Part shown: positions 1 to 13,217 of the stretch, one piece after another | Layout of the letters: each line of letters begins with the position of its first letter | Numbering within the stretch: the first letter of the stretch is position 1 | Assembly (NCBI RefSeq): GCF_016428585.1 | Contig: NZ_JAELVR010000013.1 | Coordinates: forward strand, 1 to 64,000 | From: Sedimentitalea arenosa | Lineage (GTDB): Bacteria; Pseudomonadota; Alphaproteobacteria; Rhodobacterales; Rhodobacteraceae | Length of the DNA stretch: 64,000 nucleotides | Direction: 5' to 3' | Translations under genes and position numbers: made by a program | The notes under the pieces: generated by a model | What the model was told of the DNA's origin: nothing | The model's input: the letters and a program-made list of their open reading frames with translations, nothing else | Database searches by the model: none

Positions 1-123
1 GTGGCACAGCCCCGTCGCCTTGATTTCAACCAGAACCTCGCCCGCCCGCGGACCCTCGAGATTGACCTCCATCACCTCCAGCGGCTTCCCCGCCTCCATC
101 GCAACAGCCGCTCGCGTGCGCAT
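1..123 (-). CDS. frmA: S-(hydroxymethyl)glutathione dehydrogenase / class III alcohol dehydrogenase, N-terminal fragment
   Basis: Only the first 41 codons lie in the window, reading leftward off the edge. The start ATG is at 123-121, with a GGGGG run about 6 nt upstream. The peptide begins MRTRAAVAMEAGKPLEVMEV and ends at GLCH, the zinc-ligand cysteine region of class III zinc alcohol dehydrogenases. The family oxidises S-hydroxymethylglutathione (formaldehyde plus glutathione) with NAD in the cytoplasm; the gene is called flhA in Paracoccus and adhI in Rhodobacter. Its position next to quinoprotein accessory genes fits a methanol or C1 oxidation locus. The family call is strong despite the short fragment. 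The rest of the enzyme is not visible. Confidence 0.85.
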   Translation of the reverse strand, partial: MRTRAAVAMEAGKPLEVMEVNLEGPRAGEVLVEIKATGLCH

Positions 124-288: not shown

Positions 289-903
289 ATGCAGATCGCA
301 CGCGCCTTGACCGCCACCCTGACCGCGCTGATCCTCGGCGGCACGATGCAGGCCGCGGATTTCTCTGACCCGACATGGCCCTGCATTCAGCGCAAGGTTG
401 GCGAGCTGTCGCTTGGCCTGATGTGGCCGCATCCGGTGCCCGAAGGCCCGCTGCCGGACGCGATCGCCGAGGACGCGACAACGCTGATCACCGCGCTGTC
501 GCTACGCCGGGTCGGTATCGACGAAGCCAGAGTGAGGATCGCGGCCTTCGCAGATGCTCATCCCGACCTGACCCAGGATGACCTGGGCAAGGTGTTCCGC
601 GCCGTGTTCGACCGTGTGCAGCGCGATCGTTCCGCGATCATTTCCGGGATCGAACGCTATTCTCTGAAGCAGATCGCCCTGTCGGAAGCGATCGAGGACA
701 CGCGGGTGCGGATGGACACTCTGATGAAGGCCGACGCGCCCGATTTCGACCAGGTCGACGAGCTGGAAGAGAAGCTCGACTGGGATGAACGCATCTTCCG
801 AGACCGGGCGCAATCGCTGACCTATGTTTGCGAGACCCCGGTGCTGCTGGAACAGCGCATCTATGCGATCGGCCAGGCCTTGATGGCGCAGATACCGCAA
901 TAG
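289..903 (+). CDS. Exported protein of unknown function, C1-locus associated
   Basis: 204 residues with a typical signal peptide (hydrophobic residues 5-19, probable cleavage after MQAA near residue 23). The mature part is mostly helical and charged, with only two cysteines, Cys32 close to the mature N-terminus and Cys181 near the C-terminus, which could form one disulfide. The start is supported by GGGAGGAC about 8 nt upstream of ATG. I do not recognise a domain. It converges with the metallohydrolase gene, leaving 4 nt between stop codons. Location between the formaldehyde dehydrogenase and quinoprotein relay genes suggests a periplasmic role in C1 oxidation, but that is inference from context only. 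Confidence 0.75.
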   Translation: MQIARALTATLTALILGGTMQAADFSDPTWPCIQRKVGELSLGLMWPHPVPEGPLPDAIAEDATTLITALSLRRVGIDEARVRIAAFADAHPDLTQDDLGKVFRAVFDRVQRDRSAIISGIERYSLKQIALSEAIEDTRVRMDTLMKADAPDFDQVDELEEKLDWDERIFRDRAQSLTYVCETPVLLEQRIYAIGQALMAQIPQ

Positions 904-907
904 GGGC

Positions 908-1954
908 TCATTCCCATTCGAGCTCGGTATAGGCGACGGTCGCGTTGCGCGCGTTGAACTGCTCGAACAGCTGCCAACGGCCCGCCTCGGAGGTTGCGAT
1001 GGTATCGACCGCGATGCTGAGCGCCGCGCCGCGGTCGAGCGCCCTGCGCGTGTCCGCGATCAGAACGGACAGGTAGCGCGACAGGTCGGCGCCCCCATCT
1101 GGCCAAGGCAGCACCGGCCCGCCGTGGCCCGGCACGATCTGCGCCACTCGTTGCCCTTGCATCCTATCCAATACCGACACCCAGCCGCGCACCGAACCGT
1201 CGAGCGCCGGGGCGTGGTCGTTGAATACTAGGTCGCCGGTGAACATCACACCCGTTTCGCGATCCAGCACCGTCAGGTCGTTGGTGCTGTGGGCCGTGGG
1301 CCAGGCCATGAGTTCGAGTTCCCTGCCGCCGAGGTCGATCACCGACCGGTCAGCGACCTCAACCTCAGGCAGTACGATCTTCGAGCCGATGAACGGCGCG
1401 TCGCCGATGACACGTTCGAAGGCGGTCCGGTAACTTTCCCGCCGATCCATGAGGGCTGTGGCGAGTTTGACATGGCCGACTATTATTGCACCAACTTCTT
1501 CAAATACCGATGCCCCGAACACGTGATCAGGATGCATGTGGGTCAGGATTACATGGCTGATCGGAAGATCCGTCTGCGCCCGGATCGCGCGATAGAGCCG
1601 TTCGCCGATCACCCTTGACCCTCCCGTGTCTATGACGGCGACCGAGTCCGCACCAATCACGAACCCCGCGTTGGACACTGCCCCCACGTTGTCCGCAGCG
1701 GGTTCCGCGACTTGACCGTGAAAGACGAAAACACCGTCCGCAGCTTCGTGCACCTCCGCGACCGCGCCCAACGGAACGCAACGGGCCGTGCCCTTCGCCA
1801 AGAGGCCGGGAAAGCGGGATACAGCTCTCTCCAGGCGCTCGGACAAACCGGCCTCGCACGCCGCGCGTGTTGCGGCCTCGTAGCCGGGCAGAAGGACGTC
1901 GCGACAGGTTTCGGTCTGCGCCGCGAGACATAGCGTGACGATCAGTTCGAACAT
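908..1954 (-). CDS. Quinoprotein relay system zinc metallohydrolase (SoxH-related, MBL fold)
   Basis: 348 residues. The metallo-beta-lactamase metal site is intact: HxHxDH at residues 139-144 (THMHPDH), a later AHSTND histidine, the FTGD aspartate and the PGHGG histidine. The N-terminus has a short hydrophobic start and four cysteines (9, 17, 33, 59) before the hydrolase domain, which is unlike cytoplasmic glyoxalase II. This layout matches the SoxH-like 'quinoprotein relay system zinc metallohydrolase 2' type, found near PQQ-dependent dehydrogenases together with a SoxYZ-like carrier. That carrier is the divergent neighbour at 2083. The substrate is unknown; cleavage of a carrier-bound thioester or persulfide is a guess. 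GGGAAG precedes the ATG. Confidence 0.82.
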   Translation of the reverse strand: MFELIVTLCLAAQTETCRDVLLPGYEAATRAACEAGLSERLERAVSRFPGLLAKGTARCVPLGAVAEVHEAADGVFVFHGQVAEPAADNVGAVSNAGFVIGADSVAVIDTGGSRVIGERLYRAIRAQTDLPISHVILTHMHPDHVFGASVFEEVGAIIVGHVKLATALMDRRESYRTAFERVIGDAPFIGSKIVLPEVEVADRSVIDLGGRELELMAWPTAHSTNDLTVLDRETGVMFTGDLVFNDHAPALDGSVRGWVSVLDRMQGQRVAQIVPGHGGPVLPWPDGGADLSRYLSVLIADTRRALDRGAALSIAVDTIATSEAGRWQLFEQFNARNATVAYTELEWE

Positions 1955-2082
1955 GGCTCTTCCCGTCCTTTCGACACGTTCAATCTATCAAGCTTCCGTG
2001 CGCCTAGGTTCATATCCGTAAGTCTGCGTTTCGCCTGGGCCACGATTATGGTAACTTTCGCCATCAAAGGTGGAGGTCCGTC

Positions 2083-2895
2083 ATGAAACCACTCGTTCTC
2101 GCAATGCTTGTCGCAATGCTTGCCCAAGCTGCGCTGGCGCAGGATGGTGCGCGCGACAATCCTCTGATTGACGGGCCGACCTGGCAAGAGCTTCGCGACG
2201 ATTTCGTTCCGTCCGGCACCGATGTTCGGGATGGCGCGGCGCTCTTCACCGTGGATGCACCCTATCGCGCAAACGATGCGGCCACCGTGCCCGTGGTGAT
2301 CCGTCAGGTCGATCCAACGGTGACACTTAGAAAGGCGCAGGTCATCATCGACGAGAACCCCGCCCCGATGGCGGCCGATCTGACCTTCGGCGACCGGATG
2401 CAGCCAGTCGACTTCGAACTGCGGGTTCGGATCGACCAGTATTCCAACGTCCGCGTCCTGGCGACAACGGAAGCGGGCACCTTCATGTCGGGCCGTTTCG
2501 TGAAGGCGTCGGGCGGGTGTTCGGCCCCGGCCACCAAGGATCCGACCGCGGCGCTCGCGTCGATGGGACAGATGCGGCTCAAGCATTTTGACGAGTCCGA
2601 CAACATGTCGGGGCAGCGGCGGGATGCGCAGATCATGATCCGCCACCCGAACTATTCAGGGTTGCAGCGCGACCAGATCACACAGCTGTTCGTCAGCGCG
2701 CATTTCATCGACTCGCTCGAGGTTTATCAGGGCGAGGAGCTGTTGTTTTCGCTCGAGGGCGGCATCTCGGTCAGCGAAAACCCGGTCTTTCGGTTCGTTT
2801 ATACCGACAATGGCGCGCCGACCCTGACGGTGCGGGCGCATGACACCGAGGGCAACCTGTTCGAACAGGTCCTGCCGAAATCGGTGCAATCCTGA
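2083..2895 (+). CDS. Quinoprotein dehydrogenase-associated SoxYZ-like carrier protein
   Basis: 270 residues with signal peptide (about 1-19, cleavage after ALA). The first half resembles SoxY and ends in an arm containing the only cysteine of the protein, Cys146, in KASGGCSAP. The second half resembles the beta-sandwich SoxZ, so this is a SoxY-SoxZ fusion. In SoxY the GGCGG cysteine carries sulfur intermediates; here the second glycine pair is changed and the arm is internal. No sulfur-oxidation sox genes are visible nearby. The divergent metallohydrolase and C1 genes instead fit the quinoprotein-associated subtype. GGAGG lies 7 nt before the ATG. What is carried on Cys146 is unknown. Confidence 0.82.
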   Translation: MKPLVLAMLVAMLAQAALAQDGARDNPLIDGPTWQELRDDFVPSGTDVRDGAALFTVDAPYRANDAATVPVVIRQVDPTVTLRKAQVIIDENPAPMAADLTFGDRMQPVDFELRVRIDQYSNVRVLATTEAGTFMSGRFVKASGGCSAPATKDPTAALASMGQMRLKHFDESDNMSGQRRDAQIMIRHPNYSGLQRDQITQLFVSAHFIDSLEVYQGEELLFSLEGGISVSENPVFRFVYTDNGAPTLTVRAHDTEGNLFEQVLPKSVQS

Positions 2896-2915
2896 GGTCG
2901 CGCCGCCCGACACGA

Positions 2916-3266
2916 TCAGAAACAGAGAATCTCGGCCTCGGCCTGTGCGCGGCGCAGGTCGGCCACGAGATTGCTGGCCATGGCAGAAGAGCGGAAGATC
3001 GATGTCCGCTCTCCCCCGACAAGCTGCATGGACAGCACCGTCTCGGCTTCGACGTATTTCTCGTACGGCAGGATCGATGCGATCACGTCGATCGAACAGG
3101 AACACTTTTCGAGCGCCCTGCGGCTCTGCCCGTTGGTGGCCATGCAGGCAAAGACGTAATCTGCCCGTGCGACGGTCGGATAGTCGTTGAATCGTTCCTC
3201 GGCCGTCTGCGCCGAAACGCCAACTGCGAGGCTCGCGGCCAGAGCAATTGTCACCGCGCGGATCAT
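2916..3266 (-). CDS. Small exported four-cysteine protein, C1-locus associated
   Basis: 116 residues with signal peptide (cleavage probably after VSA, residue 19). The mature protein of about 97 residues has four cysteines (41, 55, 57, 115), including a C-S-C pair, enough for two disulfides. No haem CXXCH motif is present, so it is not a c-type cytochrome. Its start overlaps the stop of the 3263-3916 gene by ATGA, so the two are translated together. Homologues sit beside XoxF-type loci in roseobacters to my recollection. Function unknown; I infer a periplasmic partner of the SoxYZ-like carrier. Confidence 0.72.
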   Translation of the reverse strand: MIRAVTIALAASLAVGVSAQTAEERFNDYPTVARADYVFACMATNGQSRRALEKCSCSIDVIASILPYEKYVEAETVLSMQLVGGERTSIFRSSAMASNLVADLRRAQAEAEILCF

Positions 3267-3916
3267 TGTGTTGTCTCGACAGCTTGCAGGGTCAGGGCAT
3301 TGGTATATAGCGGCGTCTCGTCGGATTCACCGGGTACCTTTGCGACGAGGGATCCGTACCATCCTGGGATCTCCTCGGACATGGTGAAGGTCAGGGCAAG
3401 ATCGCCATAGCCCTTCATCCGTTCACGGTTCTCGTCGTTCTCGAACGGATGGAGGGTCACCTCCCGCGAGGCCAGCGCGCGCCCGTCGAACCGGAACTGC
3501 GCGGCATGGATGTCAGCCTCCTGAACGAGTGCGTCCTTGATCCTGTTGCGGATGTAGAACGGGCTGCCACCGGCCTGATGCGCCACGTCACGCAGAACCG
3601 TCTCGACAAAATACATCACCACCGGGTTTCCGACCGATGCGGGGAACTGGCCGAGCCCCCGGTGCTTGCCGTCCTGAAAGAACGTGAGCCGCGCCATGTC
3701 GTCGGGCTCGAACGTCAGGTTGACCGAACCCGTATTGCGCGCCGCGCGATCGGGATCTGCGGCGATAACGACGTTGCGGTCGTAAACCAGGACCGAAGCC
3801 GTCGAAACGTCCGACAGGGTTTCGGTCTTGAAGATCAGGTCATAGGCTTCCTCGGCTTGCGCCGCCGCCTGATTCAGCGCCAGAGCCGCCACGACCGCGA
3901 TCAATTTTGTTCGCAT
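3263..3916 (-). CDS. Exported cysteine-free protein of unknown function, C1-locus associated
   Basis: 217 residues from the ATG at 3916, chosen over a longer reading frame because GGGAGG lies 6 nt upstream and a clean signal peptide begins there (MRTKLIAVVAALALNQAAAQA). The mature protein contains no cysteine and is predicted to be beta-rich (segments such as VNLTFEPDDMARLTFF). It is translationally coupled by ATGA to the four-cysteine protein downstream. I recognise no domain. It sits between the sensory operon and the SoxYZ-like carrier on the same strand as the regulator genes and may share their transcript. Confidence 0.7.
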   Translation of the reverse strand: MRTKLIAVVAALALNQAAAQAEEAYDLIFKTETLSDVSTASVLVYDRNVVIAADPDRAARNTGSVNLTFEPDDMARLTFFQDGKHRGLGQFPASVGNPVVMYFVETVLRDVAHQAGGSPFYIRNRIKDALVQEADIHAAQFRFDGRALASREVTLHPFENDENRERMKGYGDLALTFTMSEEIPGWYGSLVAKVPGESDETPLYTNALTLQAVETTQ

Positions 3917-4003: not shown

Positions 4004-6250
4004 TCAGGAGGACGAGGCATGTGCCAGCGTCTTCCAATCGATCAGCGACCGGAGCCGCGACAGGTTGACCGGCTTGGTCAACACCGAGAACCGATGCCGA
4101 TACCCGGCTTCCTTGATGTGATCCTCGTGATTGGCGGTGATCATGATGGCGGGAATGTCGCGATCGAGCCTGTCGCGCAGCGTCAGGATCGCCTTGATCC
4201 CCGTGTCATCCCCGTTCAGGTGATAATCCGCAAGGATGATGTCCGGCGGCATCCCGATATCCTCGACCAGACCGAGCGCCTCCTGAGTGCTCTGCGCCGC
4301 AAGAACGCTGGCTCCCCAGCCCTCCAGTTTCTGAACCATCGCGAACGCAACGCCCGGATCGTTTTCGACCAACAGGATGATCAGGTCCATGTCCTCGTCG
4401 CCGTTACGCGCCGCGCTGTCCGTGCTGCCGGTCATCAGTGCGTTGGGAGCGACGACCGGCAGGGTCAGTGAAAAGACCGAACCGACCCCGGGTTTGGAGC
4501 GCACGGCGATAGGGTGGCCCAGCAGGCGGCAGGCACGGTCGACGATGGACAGGCCCAGCCCCATGCCCTGGCTGTTGTTGCCGGAGCGGTCGGCACGCGT
4601 GAACTCGCCGAAGATCAACTGCTGATCCTTGCGCGGAATCCCGACTCCGGTGTCCCAGACCTCGATCGTGGCCGTGTCACGGTGACGTCGGCAACCGACG
4701 AGGATCCGGCCCTCGTTGGTGTAGCGGATCGCGTTGTCGACGAAATTCTGCACCGACCGGGCAAGATAGCGCTGGTCGCTCTTGACCCAAAGGCTTGTCG
4801 GTACGAAGCGTAGGTCCAGTCCCTTTTCAACCGCCAGCTGTCCCAGATCCTCGTGCACGCCCTGCAAGACATCCTGCAGCGGGAAAGAGGTCACGACCAG
4901 GTTGGTATCGGTGGCTTCCAGCCGGGCAATATCCAGAAGCGCATGCAGCAGACCCTCGATCGAGCGGAACGAGCCTTCGAGCCGGCGCACGGTTTCCTCG
5001 ATATCGCTTCCCACGGTGCGGTCGAGAACCGTCGAGATCAGCAGCTTGGCCGCATTGATCGGCTGAAGCAGGTCATGACTCGCCGCTGCGAAGAATCGGG
5101 TCTTCGATGTCATGGCCGTCTCGACCTCTGCCTTGGCAACGCGCAGGTCTTCCTCGACGCGGGCCTGTTCCTCGTATTGACGGCGTAGCTGAACGTTGGC
5201 CTCGGTCAGTTCCGAAGTGCGTGCCTGGACCCGCATCTCCAGCATCTCCGTGGTCTGGAATTCGACCGTCACGTCCATCACATTGACGATACATCCGCCG
5301 TCAGGCAGCGGATGCATGTCGATGTCGAGTATTCTGTCGTTCACGTGACGCACCCGCTGGCGCAGGTTTCCGGCCCGGCGCAGGAACCGGATAAGGCTGG
5401 CGAAATCGTCATGCGGCAGGTCGCCCACCAAGGCCTGCGCCTTGAGATATTCGATGATCTGACCAAAGGCCGTTCCCAATGTCGTCAGCTGGATCGGCAG
5501 GGTCAGCAGCGCCCCGAACTGTGCATTGTTGATCAGCAGCGTGCCCTCGGCGGAAAAGGTCGCAACCCCCTGCGGCATGTGATCGAAGGCTGCCTGCAGA
5601 AAATGCTCCTGCTCGTCGATCAGACGGTTCTTTTCCAGTCGGTTGTTGCGCACGACGGCGGTGATTTCGGTCTGCAGGATCACCGTGTTGTTGGACCGCG
5701 TGCGCCTTGACGTGATGACGAACCAACGGTCGTTCCGCAGACCAAGTACGAAGGGCGCCGCCGGCCCCTCACCCAATTGCAGGATCGACCGGCGCAAGCC
5801 GAACCGCGTCAGCCCGTCGCGCGGGTGGATGCTCTTGCTGCGGGCAAGCGCCTCGACATAAGCCGAGAATTCGAGGCCGGTCTCGACCAGGGATTGGACA
5901 TCCGGGATCAGGTGCTTGAAGAAATCGTTGAAAACCTGCAGGCGCCCTTCGGCGAACAGCGCGAACCCGCCCTCCATGGTTTCAAGCGCGTCCTCGAGCG
6001 TTCGCTGCGTGCGGGCGCGCGCCACTTCCGAGCTTTCCAACCGGTTGCTTGCCCGTCCGAGCGTGGTCAGCGCGTCCTCGAGATCGCGCGTCTTTTCCGA
6101 CACCTTGCTTTGCAAGCGGATCGCGGACTGGAACAGCGAATAGGCCGAGCCGCCCAGTTCATGCTGCTGATTGGCCCGGCGCACCAACGCATCGATGATC
6201 TTGGCCTGCCGTTGAACCTGAACCTCAAGCGGTTCGTTGGGATCAATCAT
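4004..6250 (-). CDS. Hybrid PAS sensor histidine kinase, FlhS/NahK-like
   Basis: 748 residues from the ATG at 6250, which overlaps the FIST-protein stop as ATGA. No membrane segment is seen. Order: coiled coil with heptad-like charge (about 40-90), PAS (about 85-205), second PAS (about 213-335), coiled coil (335-380), HisKA with phospho-acceptor His392 in AASHDLLQPINA, ATP-binding domain with N-box DNAIRY and G-boxes DTGVGIP and GMGLGLSIV, then a C-terminal receiver with Asp675 in ILADYHLNGDD. The sequence type is that of soluble NahK/ErcS' kinases, which partner FIST proteins. Paracoccus FlhS, controlling formaldehyde and methanol oxidation genes, is the likely functional counterpart. Confidence 0.88.
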   Translation of the reverse strand: MIDPNEPLEVQVQRQAKIIDALVRRANQQHELGGSAYSLFQSAIRLQSKVSEKTRDLEDALTTLGRASNRLESSEVARARTQRTLEDALETMEGGFALFAEGRLQVFNDFFKHLIPDVQSLVETGLEFSAYVEALARSKSIHPRDGLTRFGLRRSILQLGEGPAAPFVLGLRNDRWFVITSRRTRSNNTVILQTEITAVVRNNRLEKNRLIDEQEHFLQAAFDHMPQGVATFSAEGTLLINNAQFGALLTLPIQLTTLGTAFGQIIEYLKAQALVGDLPHDDFASLIRFLRRAGNLRQRVRHVNDRILDIDMHPLPDGGCIVNVMDVTVEFQTTEMLEMRVQARTSELTEANVQLRRQYEEQARVEEDLRVAKAEVETAMTSKTRFFAAASHDLLQPINAAKLLISTVLDRTVGSDIEETVRRLEGSFRSIEGLLHALLDIARLEATDTNLVVTSFPLQDVLQGVHEDLGQLAVEKGLDLRFVPTSLWVKSDQRYLARSVQNFVDNAIRYTNEGRILVGCRRHRDTATIEVWDTGVGIPRKDQQLIFGEFTRADRSGNNSQGMGLGLSIVDRACRLLGHPIAVRSKPGVGSVFSLTLPVVAPNALMTGSTDSAARNGDEDMDLIILLVENDPGVAFAMVQKLEGWGASVLAAQSTQEALGLVEDIGMPPDIILADYHLNGDDTGIKAILTLRDRLDRDIPAIMITANHEDHIKEAGYRHRFSVLTKPVNLSRLRSLIDWKTLAHASSS

Positions 6251-7416
6251 GACAAGTCCGCCCGTCCCGGCGAAAAAAATGCGATCCCGACGAAGGTCTG
6301 GTTCATGTGAACGCCGCGATGTTGCTCGCCATAGGTGTTGAAGCCCAGCACACGATGGGCCGACAGAATGCGCGAGGCTTCGGCAACAAGCTGGTTCTGC
6401 TCGACCTCGAGCCGCCGCAACACGCAATCAAAGCCGAGTATGAAATCGGGTACGTGTCCGTTCCGTCCCACGCCCGAAAGCTCGGCCTCCAAGGTCTCGA
6501 GGATCGCCTTCCCCCGGCCCAGCGTCAGCACTAGGCCGTTCTCGATAGCCGACAGGAAAGCGAGGCTTTGACCATCCACGACCTGCTGGATCGCGCGCAC
6601 GTGCCAGGTGTCGTGGTTACGCACCAGAACCGGGTTCTCGGCAAAGACGCGCGGCGACAGCTCCGATACGTCGTGCCCGACGAGCCGTGCGTATTCGCGT
6701 GCCGCGGGAGAACCGTTGATCTCGGTCACGATGCGGTCCTCGGGCTGCGCTTCGGTCACGACAAGCTGACGATCCGTCGGCATGAAGTGGTCGAACTCCA
6801 GTCCTGCGAATTGCAGATCGGTCTCGACCAGGATCAGAAGCGCCGCATCGGCGTGGAACTGGCCGCCATGCAGTACCAGGGTCTCGTCAAAGGCAAGCCC
6901 GTGCCCGGCCGAACCGCCGAAAGTCGGCAGGTCCCCCAGCCCCGCGTCCAGCGCCGCGACAAGAATGTCCTCCTGCTTGGAAAGCCCATCTGCGAAGGTG
7001 ACCGCGAAACGGTTCCAGTTGGCGGTTTTCTGAAAACGCTCCGCCAGGGTGCGTGCCTGCAGCGCCGTCGCTTCGATCGACAGCGGCTTGAGCGGATGTA
7101 TCAGGGTCGAGGAACAGCGGAAATGTCGCCGCGGAAAAGCCACCAGCAGCAGCGCGTCGTTCTGGTACCCTTTCGGCGTGATCTGGCCGGCCGTGGTGCA
7201 GCCGAACGCCGGCGTCTTGGGCAGCGATCGGTTGAGCGCCTGGGCAACCCTGTCGTGATCCAGACTGTCGGGCACGAAGACCAGCACGAAGCAGTGACCC
7301 GCCACACCGATCTGTTCTACGACCTGTTGCACCGCCGCGTCCGGATCGCTTGCATAGGACACGCCGAAGGCGACGAGTTCGGGTGACCTTATGAATCCGG
7401 GCGGCTGCACGTTCAT
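6247..7416 (-). CDS. FIST N- and C-domain signal transduction protein (NosP-like sensor)
   Basis: 389 residues, soluble. The N-terminal FIST half (about 15-210) includes GCTTAGQI and FGGSAGHG; the C-terminal FIST_C half ends in GFNTYGEQHRGVHMNQTF, the signature of the family. FIST proteins encoded beside NahK-type kinases in Pseudomonas (NosP) bind haem and sense nitric oxide, shifting kinase activity. The gene is coupled by ATGA to the hybrid kinase and follows the response regulator by 7 nt, so all three are one unit. Whether this member binds haem cannot be told from sequence; small-molecule sensing by FIST domains in general is equally possible. Confidence 0.85.
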   Translation of the reverse strand: MNVQPPGFIRSPELVAFGVSYASDPDAAVQQVVEQIGVAGHCFVLVFVPDSLDHDRVAQALNRSLPKTPAFGCTTAGQITPKGYQNDALLLVAFPRRHFRCSSTLIHPLKPLSIEATALQARTLAERFQKTANWNRFAVTFADGLSKQEDILVAALDAGLGDLPTFGGSAGHGLAFDETLVLHGGQFHADAALLILVETDLQFAGLEFDHFMPTDRQLVVTEAQPEDRIVTEINGSPAAREYARLVGHDVSELSPRVFAENPVLVRNHDTWHVRAIQQVVDGQSLAFLSAIENGLVLTLGRGKAILETLEAELSGVGRNGHVPDFILGFDCVLRRLEVEQNQLVAEASRILSAHRVLGFNTYGEQHRGVHMNQTFVGIAFFSPGRADLS

Positions 7417-7423
7417 GGCGACC

Positions 7424-8149
7424 TCAACTCAGCAAAGCGCGGGCGTCCTCGTCCGACATCTTGCTCCGGCTCGGAAAGCCAACCTTGTTGACCAGAACTG
7501 CCGCCTGCGTCCGGTTGCGCACCCCCAGCCGCCGCAACAGCGCCGTGATGTGCGCCTTGACCGTGGCTTCGGCCAGAGACATCTCATAGGCGATCTGCTT
7601 GTTGGGCTTGCCCGCGCAGATCAGCCCCATGATCCGCCCCTGCTGCGGGGTCAGGTCGGCGATCCTCTGGGCGATCTCCTGCACCGTTGTCGCGTCGGCG
7701 ACATCGGGGCGGGCCTGGGGTCTGAAACCGTCCGGCACGACCTTGCTGCCCCTTTCGATCTTCTCCAGAGCGATGCGGAAATCCTCCTGAGAGGCACCTT
7801 TCGGCACGAACCCTGCCGCCCCCGCCTCCAGCAACATCTGGATCGTCTCGTCTGAGGAGTCCGCCGAAATCACCAACACCGGCACCTCGGGCAGACGTTC
7901 CTTGATCGCCAGGAATCCGCTCAGTCCCGTCACGTCGGGCAGCCGCAGGTCGAGCAGAACGAGATCCGGCGTTTCGCCGCCCTCGAGCAGCCGAACCGCC
8001 TCTGCCAAACTATTGGCCGAGCGCACGGATTGCGCCTGGCACCGTTCGGACAGGGTGGCCACGAGCGCATCGCAATAGAGTGGATGGTCATCGATGACGA
8101 GGATCGAGCGAATGACGATCGCATCGTCCTTCTTCTCCAAGGTCTTCAT
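7424..8149 (-). CDS. LuxR/NarL-family response regulator, FlhR-like
   Basis: 241 residues from the ATG at 8149, chosen because GGGAGG is positioned just upstream. Receiver domain about 14-130 with the acidic pair Asp20-Asp21, phospho-acceptor Asp67 (LVLLDLRLPD) and Lys117 (FVPKGAS). LuxR-type helix-turn-helix about 165-225 (LTPQQGRIMGLICAGKPNKQIA ending in the recognition helix region EATVKAHITALLRRLGV). First gene of a regulator, FIST sensor, hybrid kinase operon. In Paracoccus an equivalent FlhR activates formaldehyde dehydrogenase and methanol oxidation genes. Regulation of the 1-3.9 kb genes and of the MoxR operon is a reasonable prediction. Confidence 0.88.
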   Translation of the reverse strand: MKTLEKKDDAIVIRSILVIDDHPLYCDALVATLSERCQAQSVRSANSLAEAVRLLEGGETPDLVLLDLRLPDVTGLSGFLAIKERLPEVPVLVISADSSDETIQMLLEAGAAGFVPKGASQEDFRIALEKIERGSKVVPDGFRPQARPDVADATTVQEIAQRIADLTPQQGRIMGLICAGKPNKQIAYEMSLAEATVKAHITALLRRLGVRNRTQAAVLVNKVGFPSRSKMSDEDARALLS

Positions 8150-8207
8150 GAATGGTCCTCCCGGCTTGACGCTACCAAAACAGGCGTCGGCATGGCAAGG
8201 AAACCGA

Positions 8208-9431
8208 TCACGTCCGCAGCTCCCCGTTTTCCGGCACGCGCCCGGCAAGGCTGCCCAGAAAAGTTCGCGTGAAGCGGCGGGTGTCAACGGACGCAGGCTC
8301 GGCAGCAAAAATATCCGTATCGAGCTGGTCCAATAGTGCCGAGCGCGTCTCATTTGACGGCGCTAGCGCGTCCAGCCGATGCGCTGCGCGACGCAAGGCG
8401 GCAAGGTCGTTGTCGCGGCTGGCCCGATGCAAGGCCTGCCGCAGCCGCAGCCGCGTCAGCCAATATCGCAAGGGGTCCAGCGTGATGCGACCGCCCGGTA
8501 TACGCCCGAACAGCACCCCGGCGAGACCGGCTGCCACCGTCGTGAGAGATACAATCGCTGCGTTCAGTCGCACCGGATCGGGCGGCGCGACTTCCGGGGA
8601 CGTTTCTCCCGTCAGCGTAGTGTCATAAGCCACTCGCTGCGGCGAGATCACTGCCTCGTGCATCTGGCGCGCATCGGTATCGAAATAGGTAAACCGGATC
8701 GGCTCGACGATCGCCGAGGTCGCATTGCGTGGCTTGATCGTCCAGCGCCAGAACGCGACGGACTCCGGACCCTTGGAGGTCAGATCGACAAGTCTCTTTT
8801 CGGGATGGGGGAAGATGAGCGCACTGGGCGAGGTCAGTTCAGGCATCGGCGGGATCATGTCGGGGCTGGCTCCCAGCGCCGACACCCGGACGATCCGCAG
8901 AACCCCTTCGCCCGGGGCCAACTGATCGGGCGCGTTGGACCAGTTGTCGCTGATCTGCAACCGGCGTACCGGAAACCACCAGCCCTCGGCAACGGGCGCG
9001 TCGAGGACAGTCAGACGCAACGGTTCGGATTCGATCGTATGTTCGAACCACGCGTTGTTTTCGTCCAGCAGCGTCAGGCGATGCCGGAACGGGCCGATCT
9101 CGATCTCGCCGGCCCGGTCGGGAAACAGTGCCATGCGCCGGCGCATGTTCTTGACCGATTTGCCATCCAGAGTGCTCGCATACCAGTGGTCCTCCCCAAG
9201 CTGCATCCAGTTGAACCCGTCCAGGTCAGGCTGTTGGAGCGTTTCCAGCGTGATGTGGCGCTTGTAGATCCCATGGATCGTCAACAGAACCATTTCGCCC
9301 TGATAGGGAACGTGCTCCATCTCCTCAAACGTGACGTTCAGGATCAGTTCGTCGGGCGCCACGCTACGTGTCTGGGCGTGCACGCACACAGGCAAGAGAC
9401 ACATCAGCGTCAGCCGGCACAGCTTCACCAT
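8208..9431 (-). CDS. BatD-like membrane-anchored periplasmic protein, last gene of the MoxR operon
   Basis: 407 residues: signal peptide (about 1-19), long beta-rich periplasmic region (20-295), one membrane segment (about 297-320, IVSLTTVAAGLAGVLFG), then a cytoplasmic helical tail rich in arginine. This is the architecture of BatD/oxygen-tolerance proteins that end Bat-type MoxR operons. The reading frame starts 7 nt inside the end of the TPR gene, so translation is coupled. In methylotrophs the equivalent Mxa/Mox gene clusters are required for active methanol dehydrogenase, possibly for metal insertion. The sequence similarity is weak, so the name rests partly on gene order. Confidence 0.7.
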   Translation of the reverse strand: MVKLCRLTLMCLLPVCVHAQTRSVAPDELILNVTFEEMEHVPYQGEMVLLTIHGIYKRHITLETLQQPDLDGFNWMQLGEDHWYASTLDGKSVKNMRRRMALFPDRAGEIEIGPFRHRLTLLDENNAWFEHTIESEPLRLTVLDAPVAEGWWFPVRRLQISDNWSNAPDQLAPGEGVLRIVRVSALGASPDMIPPMPELTSPSALIFPHPEKRLVDLTSKGPESVAFWRWTIKPRNATSAIVEPIRFTYFDTDARQMHEAVISPQRVAYDTTLTGETSPEVAPPDPVRLNAAIVSLTTVAAGLAGVLFGRIPGGRITLDPLRYWLTRLRLRQALHRASRDNDLAALRRAAHRLDALAPSNETRSALLDQLDTDIFAAEPASVDTRRFTRTFLGSLAGRVPENGELRT

Positions 9432-10114
9432 GGGTCCTCCGCCTCCGGTTGCGCCCGCCCTTTGGCGAGTCGAGCTTTGCGCTCATGCGCAATGCGTTCG
9501 GCGAGAAAGGCGCCGGGCACGTCTTCGAGCGTGGCCAGCCAGCGCGGACTCGCCACAACGAAGGCATCGTCGAACACCTTGCGCACGCTTTTCTGCTCGT
9601 GGCTCTGAAGTGCAGGCAATCCGACAGTCGCGCCTGTATTGGTCACCTCGTCTCCGGTGCCCGACGCCCGCCCCGAACCGCGCCCGGTCTCGGCCTCGAC
9701 GGTCACTCCGTCGCGCTCGACACCCCAGCGGACAATCGAGTCGGCGTCCAACCGTGTCGCGCCGTAGAAGGCGCGCACCAGATCGAAATTGGTCTCGGCC
9801 TGGCTGTCGGGCCGGTACGCCATTGCGATGTCATAGGCTTCAAGCGCGGCGGCGTAGTTGCCGCGCTGCGCTTCGGCGTTGCCGAGGTTGAAGGCCGCAT
9901 CGGGACCCGCGCGCGAGAAACTCTCGGCTGCCTCCTCGATCCGCCCAGCCCGTGCCAGCGCGAGGCCGCTCCATTGAGCATCGGTAAGAACCTGCGCGGC
10001 AAGCGACGGCAGGCCGAGCGCCAAAAACACGCGCCCGAACGGGGCCACACCACCAAGCATCGCGGCGAGGATCGCAAGGGACAAGGCCAGCGGGAGGGCG
10101 ATGCGCAGGATCAT
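9425..10114 (-). CDS. Tetratricopeptide-repeat membrane protein (BatC/MxaK-like)
   Basis: 229 residues from the ATG at 10114, which overlaps the preceding vWA stop as ATGA; longer upstream reading would run through the vWA gene. One N-terminal membrane segment (about 3-33) is followed by TPR motifs (AGRIEEAAESFSRAGPDAAFNLG and GNYAAALEAYDIAMAYRPDS type helices, about 55-115) and a low-complexity Gly/Ser linker (about 145-165). Such proteins sit between vWA proteins and BatD in Bat operons and probably scaffold the complex in the periplasm. The specific partner is unknown. Confidence 0.75.
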   Translation of the reverse strand: MILRIALPLALSLAILAAMLGGVAPFGRVFLALGLPSLAAQVLTDAQWSGLALARAGRIEEAAESFSRAGPDAAFNLGNAEAQRGNYAAALEAYDIAMAYRPDSQAETNFDLVRAFYGATRLDADSIVRWGVERDGVTVEAETGRGSGRASGTGDEVTNTGATVGLPALQSHEQKSVRKVFDDAFVVASPRWLATLEDVPGAFLAERIAHERKARLAKGRAQPEAEDPW

Positions 10115-11025
10115 CTCGAACGCCTGCGAAACAGCCCGGCCAGCGGGACCAGCGCAAGGCACAACAGGAACCGGCCGTAGTCGGTCCAGATCGCAAGACC
10201 GAAATCCTGCGCCCTGAAGCGCGCGCCATCGCTGTCCCCCAGAAGGTCCATGAACCGGTCGATATCGGTCGCGGCCACGCGTTCGGCAGATGCACTGCGG
10301 ATTAGCCGTTCGATCCCGGAGGCATCGCCGTGCTCGCTTTCCAGATGCGCTACGATCAGGCGGGCGCCCTCCGCTTTCAGGTCGCGCGCGGCGGCCAGCG
10401 CGGCGTCGTCGAGTCCGGCCCCGTCGCTGAACAGCACAACGTCTCCCGCCAGGATATCGGCCCGCGACAACATAATTGCCGCGTCCCGCAGCCCGAGCGC
10501 GGGCCGACTGCCCCTGTCCGGCACGGTGTCGCCGGTCAGGAGCGCAATGGTCTGGCCCAACGGGCGATGATCTGTCGTCAGGGTCGCCGCCTCGTAGCTG
10601 TCCCCGGCAAAGACGATCAGGGCGGCGGGCCGCGTGGCCAGCACGCTCAGGCCCGCGCGCGCCAGCGTCACCACTTCGTGCCAACGCGGATCGCGGGTCA
10701 TCGAAGGCGAAACGTCCATCACGAACACTACACCATCGAGGTTGCGAAAACTCTGCCCCTCGCCGATTTGCACGGCCGGCCCGGTCAACGCCACCCCCAC
10801 TACACCGGCGGCGAGAAACGCCGCAAGGCCCGCGCCACGGCGGCCGGACCGTTCGATGCGCCCCAGCCGGTCCATCGCCTGCATCAGGTGTGCATCGATA
10901 GCGCGGGACCAGTCGCCCAGCTCGCCCCGCCGGCGATGCGACCACCACGCCAATGCCACCACCAGAGGAACCGACAGCAGCCAGTAGGGGCGCAACAGAG
11001 CGAAGGTGTCGAGCGCGTCGATCAT
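10111..11025 (-). CDS. von Willebrand factor A membrane protein (BatB-like)
   Basis: 304 residues from ATG 11025 (ATGA overlap with the previous gene's stop). Two N-terminal hydrophobic segments (about 8-32 and 64-86), a vWA domain (about 98-265) and a C-terminal membrane segment (about 280-298). The MIDAS metal site is a variant: DVSPS instead of DxSGS, followed by the conserved FSDGAG loop. Second of two tandem vWA genes, as in batA-batB and in the methanol dehydrogenase maturation clusters (MxaC/MxaL). It likely forms a membrane complex with the MoxR ATPase. The altered MIDAS may still bind metal, since the serines are kept. Confidence 0.8.
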   Translation of the reverse strand: MIDALDTFALLRPYWLLSVPLVVALAWWSHRRRGELGDWSRAIDAHLMQAMDRLGRIERSGRRGAGLAAFLAAGVVGVALTGPAVQIGEGQSFRNLDGVVFVMDVSPSMTRDPRWHEVVTLARAGLSVLATRPAALIVFAGDSYEAATLTTDHRPLGQTIALLTGDTVPDRGSRPALGLRDAAIMLSRADILAGDVVLFSDGAGLDDAALAAARDLKAEGARLIVAHLESEHGDASGIERLIRSASAERVAATDIDRFMDLLGDSDGARFRAQDFGLAIWTDYGRFLLCLALVPLAGLFRRRSR

Positions 11026-11972
11026 GCGTCGCGCCACCCGATCCAGAGGCACCCCAGCCCCGCCGCCACCGCCGGCCAGACCCAGAGATCGCGATAGACC
11101 TCGGCGGCAAGTCCGGCACGCGCGGTCGGTTCGAGCCGGTCGATCTCCTCCACCACGGCGCGCAGATCCTCGGTGGTGCGTACGCGAAACATCTCGCCCC
11201 CGCTGAGGTCGGCCACGGCGGCGAGCGTCACCGTGTCGACCGCACCGCGTTCATCCGGATCGTCGGCGAGATCCACCGGACTCATCGCGATGGTGTGAAT
11301 CCGCACGCCACGTTCCGCCGCCAGCTTGGCCACATCGCGCGGCGTCGCCGCGCCGGCGTTGTTGGCCCCGTCCGACAGCAGGATAACCACCTGGCTTTCC
11401 GCCTCAGAGGTCTCGAACCGCTTGAGCGCGAGCCCCAGCGCGTCGGACATGTTCGTGGCACGGCCAGAAATTCCGATCACCATGCCTTCGACGGTTTCGG
11501 CGACCGCGTCGACATCAAAGGTCAGCGGCGCCGCAACGTAGGCGTCGGAGCCGAATACGACAAGGCCAACCCGGTCGCCGCCGCGCCCTCGCACGAAGGA
11601 CGCGCCGACGTGTTTCAGGGCATCCAGACGCGCGACCTGGCGCTGGTCGATCACGAAATCATCGCGCACCATCGATCCCGACAGGTCCAGCGCCAAGATC
11701 AGATCACGCCCGGAGATCGGCAAACCCTGCACCGGCAAAACCTGGCGTGGCCCGGCAAGCGCCAGAACCAGCAGTCCCCAGACCAGCATTGGCACCGCGA
11801 ATGAGCCGATCGCGCCCGTGCCGCGCGTCACCGCGCCGATCAGGATGCGCCGTCCGACCCCCTCTGGCACCAGCAACCCTGCCCCACGCGCACGGCGTGG
11901 CGGCGCAAGCAGAAGGATGAGTGGCGGAACGAGCAGCAGGACGAAGGCCCAAGGCGTCGCGAAGTCAGACAT
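11022..11972 (-). CDS. von Willebrand factor A membrane protein (BatA-like)
   Basis: 316 residues from ATG 11972, overlapping the end of the DUF4381 gene by 8 nt. Hydrophobic N-terminal segment (about 6-24), a second near 55-75, a vWA domain (about 85-265) with an intact MIDAS: LALDLSGSMVRDD and LLSDGANNAG, and a C-terminal membrane segment near 295-312 ending at the conserved WIGWRD. In Bat and Mox operons this protein pairs with the second vWA protein and the MoxR ATPase to act on exported targets. Better conserved than its neighbour at 10111. Confidence 0.85.
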   Translation of the reverse strand: MSDFATPWAFVLLLVPPLILLLAPPRRARGAGLLVPEGVGRRILIGAVTRGTGAIGSFAVPMLVWGLLVLALAGPRQVLPVQGLPISGRDLILALDLSGSMVRDDFVIDQRQVARLDALKHVGASFVRGRGGDRVGLVVFGSDAYVAAPLTFDVDAVAETVEGMVIGISGRATNMSDALGLALKRFETSEAESQVVILLSDGANNAGAATPRDVAKLAAERGVRIHTIAMSPVDLADDPDERGAVDTVTLAAVADLSGGEMFRVRTTEDLRAVVEEIDRLEPTARAGLAAEVYRDLWVWPAVAAGLGCLWIGWRDA

Positions 11973-12336
11973 GACGACGCACCCTGTCCTCGAGGTCGGC
12001 CAGGGCCAGCGGCGCATCGCGGCGATAGAGCTGGTCGCGCAAGGCCCTCACCGCATCGGGATCATGCTCGCGCAGCAGGTGCAACAACGCCACGGTGCGG
12101 TCCGCCTCTGGCAACCGGTCAAGCGCGTCGAGCCGGTCTGCCAAAGACGGCTGCCGCGCGGCGGGATGAGGCCGGCTGACCAGCGAGAACAGCAGCGCCA
12201 GCACGCAGCCCGCCAGCAGGCCGACCGCACCGGCGGCGGCAAGGTCGGCCAGCAGCCCGCCCGGAGCGGCATCCGGCAACCGCATGCCGTGCAGACCGGC
12301 AATCAGATCGTCATGGGTGAGAGCCGAGTCCGTCAT
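11965..12336 (-). CDS. DUF4381-like small membrane protein
   Basis: 123 residues from ATG 12336 (ATGA overlap with the DUF58 stop). One strong membrane segment (about 28-54, LLADLAAAGAVGLLAGCVLALLF type) then a charged helical cytoplasmic tail. In Bat-type operons a DUF4381 gene occupies exactly this slot between DUF58 and the first vWA gene, which is the main reason for the call. It may correspond to MxaA by position, but length does not fit well, so I give no symbol. Confidence 0.65.
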   Translation of the reverse strand: MTDSALTHDDLIAGLHGMRLPDAAPGGLLADLAAAGAVGLLAGCVLALLFSLVSRPHPAARQPSLADRLDALDRLPEADRTVALLHLLREHDPDAVRALRDQLYRRDAPLALADLEDRVRRHV

Positions 12337-13217
12337 GCCGCCGTCCCACGCAGGGCTTCGGGCATGACGCTGCCCGCGTCGAGGAACGCGACCGGCCAGT
12401 CGTTCAGCACTTCGATCTGCGGCGCTCCAGCCTCGGCCGCACCGCCGTAGCGCAGCGGCATCATCCCGCCATCTGCCCGCACCACCGGGTAGGAACCCGC
12501 CGGCAGGCGGTCGAGACCGGCATCGCCGACCAAAAGGCATCGCAGGTTTCGGTGGCGCGACAGTTCGCCCAGCACGCTGTCGAGATCCGCTCCGGGCGTG
12601 TCCAGCGAACTTGCCAGCAGCACTTCTGAACCGCGCGGCACCAACTTGTCGAGCCCGGTCAGGCTGTTGTCGAGTGGCGGATCTGCAAGCCCGCGTGGCG
12701 CCGCGTCTATCGCGACCCGGTGCGCACGCACCAGCCCGCCGATCACCGCCAGCATCCCGCTCACGCGACCTCGGGACGGCACGTGCACCCGCTCTCCGGC
12801 GGTGATCGCCAGAAGACCGACCCGCCCGCCGCTGTCGACCGTCTGCCAACCCAGCCACGCCAACGCCTCGGCCGCGGCGACCGAGCGGAGAGCCCGCCGC
12901 ATCCCCCAGAGCATGCAGGGCCGGAAATCCGCGATCAGGAAGCGTACGCGGTCGCGCTCTTCGTGATAAGTGCGGATGTGCAACTCACCGGTCCGGGCGG
13001 TGGCGCCACGATCAACGTGGCGCAACTCGTCACCCGGCATGTAGAGTCGACTGTCCGCGATGATCTGACCGTTGCCGCGACGCGATATCGCGAAACCGCC
13101 GGGAAGCGCACTGGTGCCGCCGCCCTCGGCAAGATGCCGGCGCGCACCGTGGCGCAGAGCGATCAGGCTGTCGGCCGTGACGGACACCCCATCGCCGACA
13201 CCGGCTGCCGCACTCAC
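12333..13217 (-). CDS. DUF58 domain-containing protein (MxaS-like)
   Basis: 294 residues starting at GTG 13217, overlapping the MoxR stop. The DUF58 signature region is clear: YMPGDELRHVDRGATARTGELHIRTYHEERDR (about 59-90; a R-x-Y-x-x-G-D box), followed by a vWA-like fold. There are no membrane segments. DUF58 proteins are always linked to MoxR ATPases and in methylotrophs (MxaS) are needed for methanol oxidation. Third-position GC and overlap pattern match the rest of the operon. Role inferred from the family: adaptor between the ATPase and vWA proteins. Confidence 0.82.
   Translation of the reverse strand: MSAAAGVGDGVSVTADSLIALRHGARRHLAEGGGTSALPGGFAISRRGNGQIIADSRLYMPGDELRHVDRGATARTGELHIRTYHEERDRVRFLIADFRPCMLWGMRRALRSVAAAEALAWLGWQTVDSGGRVGLLAITAGERVHVPSRGRVSGMLAVIGGLVRAHRVAIDAAPRGLADPPLDNSLTGLDKLVPRGSEVLLASSLDTPGADLDSVLGELSRHRNLRCLLVGDAGLDRLPAGSYPVVRADGGMMPLRYGGAAEAGAPQIEVLNDWPVAFLDAGSVMPEALRGTAA

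Follow-up and report, generated by a model that had tools for sequence, protein, structure and literature searches.

A conserved block of exported proteins in Sedimentitalea arenosa and its probable link to the methanol dehydrogenase XoxF5

Gene content of the locus

The stretch analyzed here, called the window, comprises the first 64,000 nucleotides of contig NZ_JAELVR010000013.1 (C5) of Sedimentitalea arenosa (assembly GCF_016428585.1; 3.98 Mb in 26 contigs). At 908-3916 it carries genes for a SoxY-SoxZ fusion protein (the carrier), a zinc hydrolase related to SoxH, and two exported proteins without a family name, here c2 and c4. An earlier note on this DNA had placed these four genes together as a periplasmic quinoprotein-relay module, the carrier and hydrolase types being linked to dehydrogenases that use pyrroloquinoline quinone (PQQ), and all four do stand there. 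A fifth gene left out of that note, c8, also belongs to the group.

289..903, + strand: c8, unnamed exported protein, signal peptide judged by eye; two conserved cysteines, 32 and 181
908..1954, - strand: zinc metallo-hydrolase, quinoprotein relay type 2, SoxH-related (TIGR04559)
1955..2082: divergent intergenic region between hydrolase and carrier, 128 bp
2083..2895, + strand: SoxY-SoxZ fusion carrier, exported, with its single Cys146 on an SGGC arm (TIGR04557)
2916..3266, - strand: c2, exported four-cysteine protein, predicted to be all-helical; cysteines 41, 55, 57 and 115
3263..3916, - strand: c4, exported cysteine-free protein; 4-base overlap with the start of c2

Carrier and hydrolase

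The carrier matches TIGR04557 over its full length (260.4 bits, cut-off 140) and contains both the SoxY and the SoxZ domain of Pfam. As had been read from the sequence, Cys146 is its only cysteine. This residue, lack of conservation of which would have counted against the earlier proposal, is kept in 68 of 68 aligned carriers. The TIGR04557 family, matched by description to the fused SoxYZ-S2/S4 of PMC11237559, likewise has a single Cys on a GGC arm and a PQQ dehydrogenase as neighbor; the window carrier differs in that it lies in a fixed block with c4, c2, c8, and XoxF5 genes. Two further SoxYZ-like fusions are present in the same genome, each with one arm cysteine: one at C12:4992-5753 (L002), beside xoxJ and a CXXCW gene, and one at C4:84915-85655 (L003), beside a CXXCW gene and a TIGR04558 hydrolase.

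The hydrolase scores above the TIGR04559 cut-off (379.9 versus 280 bits) and has the zinc-ligand pattern of that family. Among 60 aligned sequences, H222, D241, and H277 are at least 97% conserved, as are H139, H141, D143, and H144, although the latter four were counted in rows preselected for HxHxDH, 7 of 66 rows without this motif having been dropped as mis-extracted. The protein differs from the family model by an N-terminal extension (residues 1-66), within which cysteines 17, 33, and 59 are conserved in 87%, 95%, and 95% of the 60 sequences. It is also weakly similar to hydroxyacylglutathione hydrolase (E 1.7e-6, far under that family's cut-off).

With the Sox system of thiosulfate oxidation (SoxYZ, SoxB, SoxH), the carrier shares domain ancestry and the hydrolase a distant relationship to SoxH, as judged by family name. 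However, the carrier fails the equivalog cut-offs for both SoxY (42.9 versus 125 bits) and SoxZ (49.4 versus 76 bits), and the only soxB above cut-off in the genome lies on another contig, at C21:259342, with a soxY-soxZ pair, interrupted by a stop, at C21:257677. The earlier statement that sulfur-oxidation genes are lacking holds, then, for the neighborhood but not for the genome.

That such carriers and hydrolases are linked to PQQ dehydrogenases has already been published; what is new here is the tie of c2 and c4 (and c8) to XoxF5. A review of the ped cluster of Pseudomonas putida (PMC12997753) connects PQQ dehydrogenases that have adjacent cysteines with the carrier, the hydrolase, and a rhodanese-like protein, and suggests disulfide formation, cofactor stabilization, or shielding of PQQ from sulfur. 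In that cluster (PP_2666, PP_2677, PP_2678), a rhodanese-like protein, a SoxYZ-like carrier, and a SoxH-like hydrolase stand beside PQQ alcohol dehydrogenases, together with NosP- and NahK-like regulators. It differs from the present locus in that, within the part of its gene table that was compared, and by description only, nothing like c2 or c4 is described. Elsewhere, a fused SoxYZ-S4 has been found beside xoxF, with protection from thiosulfate proposed as its role (PMC11237559), and soxH is drawn in a figure of the xoxF5 cluster for a Roseobacter strain and Rhodobacter sphaeroides (PMC5934484).

The unnamed exported proteins

None of c2, c4, and c8 matches an NCBIfam family; c2 and c8 have no Pfam match either, and c4 has a single one, below cut-off. 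As stated earlier from the sequence, c2 carries four cysteines and c4 none. The four are invariant in 81 of 81 aligned c2 sequences, the alignment of 79 c4 sequences is free of cysteine columns throughout, and c8 has two cysteine columns, kept in 97% and 98% of 64 sequences. Because c2 and c4 each match in 17 of 121 genomes of the order and the cysteines of c2 do not vary, both are real genes.

The AlphaFold2 model of c2 is all-helical, with a predicted local distance difference test score (pLDDT) of 84.2, and this predicted fold has no match in the PDB at E<=0.001. The model of c4 is confident (pLDDT 94.8) and shows an alpha-beta fold, the best seven matches of which are to LprG, LppX, and LolA (E 3.7e-5 to 6.7e-4, query-normalized template modeling score 0.30-0.35); this likeness between a predicted and known folds is a weak lead only. 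No paper on c2, c4, or c8 was recognized in the literature searched, where searching by sequence is impossible. In M. extorquens, two genes of unknown function near xoxFGJ, orf6 and orf7, are needed for normal lanthanum-dependent growth on methanol, and their mutants have strong phenotypes (PMC7391723). By description only, this pair is comparable to c4 and c2.

Linkage to the xoxF genes across a contig break

A gene fragment at the very edge of the window, missing from the earlier note, bears on the genomic setting of the block.

1..123, - strand: start of flhA (41 codons), for S-(hydroxymethyl)glutathione dehydrogenase; the contig starts inside the gene, as read from the first 140 bases

The full-length gene is present in relatives, and its name was taken from the equivalent place in Sinorhizobium meliloti; the names XoxF5, mxa, and flhA are in part our own presumption. 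At the start of contig C12 stand the 39 final codons of flhA; next come fghA, xoxF, a cytochrome gene, xoxJ, a rhodanese-like CXXCW gene after xoxJ, and a second SoxYZ-like gene. C5 and C12, kept here as separate contigs, thus both break inside flhA. In five relatives (L038, L039, L040, L042, and L045), c4, c2, carrier, hydrolase, c8, flhA, fghA, xoxF, cytochrome, and xoxJ are found in one stretch, except that the gene calls lack fghA for L038 and, for L042, both c8 and the hydrolase. Since the split flhA puts fghA-xoxFGJ next door, and the relatives are contiguous, the window carrier can be linked to a PQQ dehydrogenase.

Distribution among genomes

In a sample of 121 genomes of the order, this genome included, c2 is found in 17, spread over 9 of 59 genera, and c4 in exactly the same 17; all of these except G203 also have a close SoxYZ ortholog (at least 215 bits; 16/17). 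A PQQ alcohol dehydrogenase (PQQ-ADH) above the TIGR03075 cut-off occurs in 38 of the genomes (47 matches), and all 47 matches were classed by comparison with the two enzymes of this genome, the limit for the XoxF5 type being 60% identity to the C12 enzyme (55% at the level of the class). The XoxF5 type is present in 17 genomes, which are the same 17 that have c2 and c4. The C1 type is present in 27, only 6 of them with c2, and three further matches belong to neither. Fisher tests against XoxF5 give p values, uncorrected for kinship, of 4.5e-21 for c2 and 4.8e-19 for the carrier. A role of c2 and c4 with quinoproteins in general was considered and is rejected at this level, given that both are absent from the 21 genomes having only the other PQQ-ADH type.

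The sequence CCD is read in all 17 XoxF5 enzymes, and WD[YF]DG, which we take to be a mark of lanthanide use, is found in both PQQ-ADH types. As the other type also has CCD, the link of c2 and c4 is to the XoxF5 type rather than to either feature alone. These observations bear on an explanation confined to maturation, in which c2, c8, and the carrier would act in thiol-disulfide exchange to form the adjacent-cysteine bond of XoxF, with the hydrolase as a maturation factor that has no metabolite. The conserved cysteines of c2 and c8, the CCD of every XoxF5, the Mxa-like gene set nearby, and the suggestion of disulfide formation in PMC12997753 are consistent with this idea. However, CCD also occurs in the second enzyme type in the 21 genomes that lack c2, and such a scheme offers no obvious place for a zinc hydrolase that retains its ligands; as a full account it is rather unlikely, though it is the strongest of the alternatives.

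The class-level sample comprises 192 genomes. Here c2 occurs in 7, and a fused SoxYZ above cut-off without an internal stop in 11 (G165 and G072, also above the TIGR04557 cut-off, were kept out of this set because a stop splits the match). A PQQ-ADH above cut-off is found in 40 genomes, among them 9 of the 11 with the fused carrier versus 31 of the 181 others (p 1.3e-5). XoxF5-like enzymes (above 55%) occur in 8 genomes, 6 of which have c2 (p 3e-9), as judged from the 42 of 70 PQQ-ADH places that were classed (40 fetched and two own), 13 of the 40 genomes having no classed place.

Linkage to soxB was assessed in both samples. In the order, soxB above cut-off occurs in 69 genomes, 13 of the 17 with c2 and 56 of the 104 others (p 0.11), so that no significant link of c2 to soxB is seen among the 121 genomes; soxCD was not searched. 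In the class, 3 of the 11 genomes with the fused carrier have soxB (p 0.10). Of the 7 genomes with c2, 3 have soxB, versus 18 of 185 others, a weak link (p 0.03). The earlier expectation that these families would go with xoxF rather than with sox genes is thus borne out in the order, where they follow XoxF and not soxB, but in the class it is blurred by this weak c2-soxB association. Sulfur oxidation as the role of the block is nevertheless rejected, given the lack of order-level soxB linkage and the failed SoxY and SoxZ cut-offs.

A different proposal, already in print, is protection from sulfur: the carrier would bind thiosulfate, sulfite, or sulfane sulfur that would otherwise add to PQQ, and the hydrolase would release sulfate or sulfite. 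The SoxY and SoxZ domains of the carrier, the SoxH-related family of the hydrolase, the rhodanese-like gene after xoxJ, and the weak c2-soxB link in the class all fit this proposal, and PMC12997753 and PMC11237559 cite work in which thiosulfate hinders growth on methanol and SoxH replaces SoxB. Set against this, the soxB link is not significant in the order, nor for the fused carrier in the class, and 4 of the 17 order-level c2 genomes have no soxB above cut-off. We consider protection from sulfur unlikely to be the whole function, slightly more so than maturation.

Neighborhoods in named genomes

Beyond the five-gene block, the window continues with putative regulatory genes and a set of genes that resembles those for Mxa-type maturation.

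4004..6427, - strand: hybrid histidine kinase of the NahK/ErcS' kind, in the AfdS/FlhS position; best matches NF041831 and NF041832, both below their cut-offs
6247..7416, - strand: FIST-domain protein, NosP-like, in the AfdT position; PF08495 and PF10442 above cut-off, NosP model 377.9 bits, its cut-off of 450 not reached
7424..8353, - strand: LuxR-type response regulator, ErdR-like, in the AfdR position, by domain and family matches
8208..13217, - strand: mxaA/K/L/C/S-like genes, Mxa-type maturation set; gene order as in relatives

The true start of the regulator is probably near 8110, because its domains begin only at residue 83. The names mxaA/K/L/C/S are our presumption, made without a family match; the gene at 11025-12017 has a VWA-protein match below cut-off.

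Named genomes were searched with the alignment of c2, and the best 80 loci of at least 527 confirmed relatives were evaluated. These loci lean toward the Rhodobacterales, as this order supplied the query alignment, and some of the stretches stop at contig ends. Among them, c4 is found in 79, the kinase in 76, the regulator and the FIST protein in 73 each, the carrier in 67, c8 in 63, flhA in 49, and xoxF in 41. The hydrolase occurs in the same 67 loci as the carrier, neither of them ever alone. In a Sinorhizobium meliloti strain, the block runs from the regulator to the CXXCW gene; the kinase and c8 are unannotated, and c8 was recovered by profile. S. meliloti 2011 is reported to show lanthanide-dependent growth on methanol (PMC12628762). 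Judging by position, from the kinase SMb20164 and fdh SMb20170, its orthologs of c4, c2, carrier, hydrolase, and c8 are probably SMb20165 to SMb20169.

In Azoarcus sp. KH32C, xoxF, a cytochrome gene, xoxJ, c4, c2, hydrolase, and carrier are consecutive and in one direction, with formylmethanofuran dehydrogenase nearby; the relation of c4 and c2 was confirmed by profile (122.5 and 62.3 bits). Because this run stands beside methanofuran genes, the constant partner is XoxF and not the glutathione pathway. In Paraburkholderia, fae has a c2 relative as its neighbor, and next to a xoxJ-like gene lies a weak relative of c4 (26.5 bits). In Azospirillum brasilense, pqqA, c2, carrier, and hydrolase lie beside genes of the tetrahydromethanopterin (H4MPT) pathway, and no c4 was found in the stretch by profile search. 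In one further genome (G112, locus L138), c8, c4, c2, a cytochrome gene (xoxG), and xoxJ are co-directional and lie beside xoxF; the locus has no fused carrier. Downstream of xoxJ at this locus (L138:7459-8283) is a gene for what looks, by eye, like a pentapeptide-repeat protein; a pentapeptide repeat protein is encoded in the ped cluster as well. A role in the glutathione pathway, which was among the candidates, is weakened by the methanofuran or H4MPT company seen in Azoarcus, Azospirillum, and Paraburkholderia.

The kinase directly precedes c4 in 76 of the 80 loci, which raises the question of whether c2 and c4 might act outside the cytoplasm as sensors for this kinase and merely travel with the XoxF regulon. 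How AfdRS sense formaldehyde is left unexplained in PMC4776306, which favors this idea. In Azoarcus and G112, however, c4 and c2 sit with xoxJ or with xoxG-xoxJ, and no such kinase was found adjacent; a sensor role is the least probable of the alternatives, and we regard it as very unlikely.

The company of flhA, fghA, and a kinase-FIST-regulator trio like AfdRTS also recalls an aldehyde relay, a protein-bound counterpart of the glutathione pathway. In this scheme, formaldehyde made by XoxF would be held on Cys146 as an S-hydroxymethyl group and oxidized, by XoxF or a partner, to S-formyl, from which the hydrolase would free formate. The invariant Cys146 and the weak likeness of the hydrolase to hydroxyacylglutathione hydrolase are in line with such a relay. 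Still, the carrier-hydrolase pair also stands beside the other PQQ dehydrogenase type and in the ped cluster of P. putida, and no enzyme is known here that would oxidize the adduct. An aldehyde relay is accordingly judged improbable, if somewhat less so than a sensor role.

A probable accessory module of XoxF5

Taken together, these results have led to the hypothesis that the four genes and c8 serve the methanol dehydrogenase XoxF5 as a periplasmic accessory module, acting in its maturation or protection. We assign this reading, which is drawn from sequence comparisons, a probability of roughly 0.6. It is based on the shared order-level distribution, the single block with flhA-fghA-xoxFGJ in relatives, and the invariant carrier thiol and c2 cysteines. 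As c2 and c4 are found in the same sampled genomes as XoxF, they probably help XoxF to mature or to stay intact. The block would then be neither a free-standing pathway, as had been imagined earlier, nor a system of sulfur oxidation; the quinoprotein link that had been proposed with it finds support and, in the case of c2 and c4, can be narrowed to XoxF5. For the chemistry suggested at the same time, a shuttle of formaldehyde, another C1 group, or sulfur bound to the cysteine, these results neither provide support nor rule it out. The maturation, sulfur, and aldehyde explanations discussed above are narrower forms of the accessory-module reading, and consequently their odds overlap with it.

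In the mechanism that we envisage, the client would be XoxF, a PQQ enzyme whose sequence contains two adjacent cysteines. The proteins c4, c2, and c8 would act in its export, folding, or redox maturation. Cys146 of the carrier would capture a reactive group, either a sulfur species or an aldehyde, before it could poison the quinone or the paired cysteines; the zinc hydrolase would then cleave this group off, thus regenerating the thiol. The upstream kinase, FIST, and regulator genes, being of the AfdRTS/FlhRS kind, might switch the module on with formaldehyde. More specifically, XoxF5 may be served by its own, previously unrecognized periplasmic system, in which a thiol carrier and a hydrolase cycle a covalent adduct, together with c2, c8, and c4, the last being a LolA/LprG-like candidate chaperone or carrier; this fuller version is put forward tentatively, at clearly less than even odds. 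If it is correct, XoxF5 without its service system would remain unmatured or be progressively poisoned, which would explain why c2 and c4 keep company with XoxF5 in alphaproteobacteria and some betaproteobacteria.

Several observations weigh against an accessory module dedicated to XoxF5. In 13 of the 80 named loci, c2 is found without a carrier or hydrolase within the stretch. In the class, G111 (1.4 Mb, 97% complete; loci L141 and L142) has c2, c4, carrier, and hydrolase without a XoxF match, which reflects either an assembly gap or another client. G107 and G160 have the fused carrier without XoxF5, and G007 and G122 have XoxF5 and a carrier without c2. G041 and G142 have the carrier and hydrolase beside a C1-type, non-XoxF PQQ dehydrogenase, which speaks against a role limited to formaldehyde. 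To these must be added the CCD of the other PQQ-ADH type and the weak class-level link of c2 to soxB. Finally, disruption of the carrier and hydrolase in P. putida had minimal effect on short-chain alcohols in the absence of rare earths (PMC12997753).

The maturation and upkeep of XoxF methanol dehydrogenases are, to our knowledge, an open question. Unnamed exported families that share the distribution of XoxF5, or its operon, are concrete gene targets, and S. meliloti, which has the block, is reported to grow on methanol with lanthanides. If the carrier does hold an adduct, it would put the SoxYZ fold to a new use.

Regulators and a possible promoter element

The order of regulator, middle gene, and kinase in the window matches the AfdRTS/FlhRS layout of PMC4776306, in which AfdT lies between AfdR and AfdS, no domain being named for this middle gene in the passages compared. 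A second kinase-FIST-regulator trio of this genome lies at L055:7655-13709 (G000:C1), next to the gene for the other PQQ alcohol dehydrogenase, an arrangement that would suggest one copy for each dehydrogenase type.

An element resembling TTTTNTGGCATA, for which the window has no match at up to two mismatches, occurs in the region separating carrier and hydrolase in 20 of 57 relatives (at most 1 mismatch; L058-L137) versus 4 of 1160 shuffled sequences. Within 1.38 Mb, 22 of its 28 matches fall in the carrier-hydrolase region or before SoxYZ. With a looser weight matrix, scores slightly higher than those of shuffled sequences were obtained for the regions before the regulator (26% of 73, shuffled 5%), xoxF (17% of 41, shuffled 0), and flhA (12% of 49, shuffled 4%).

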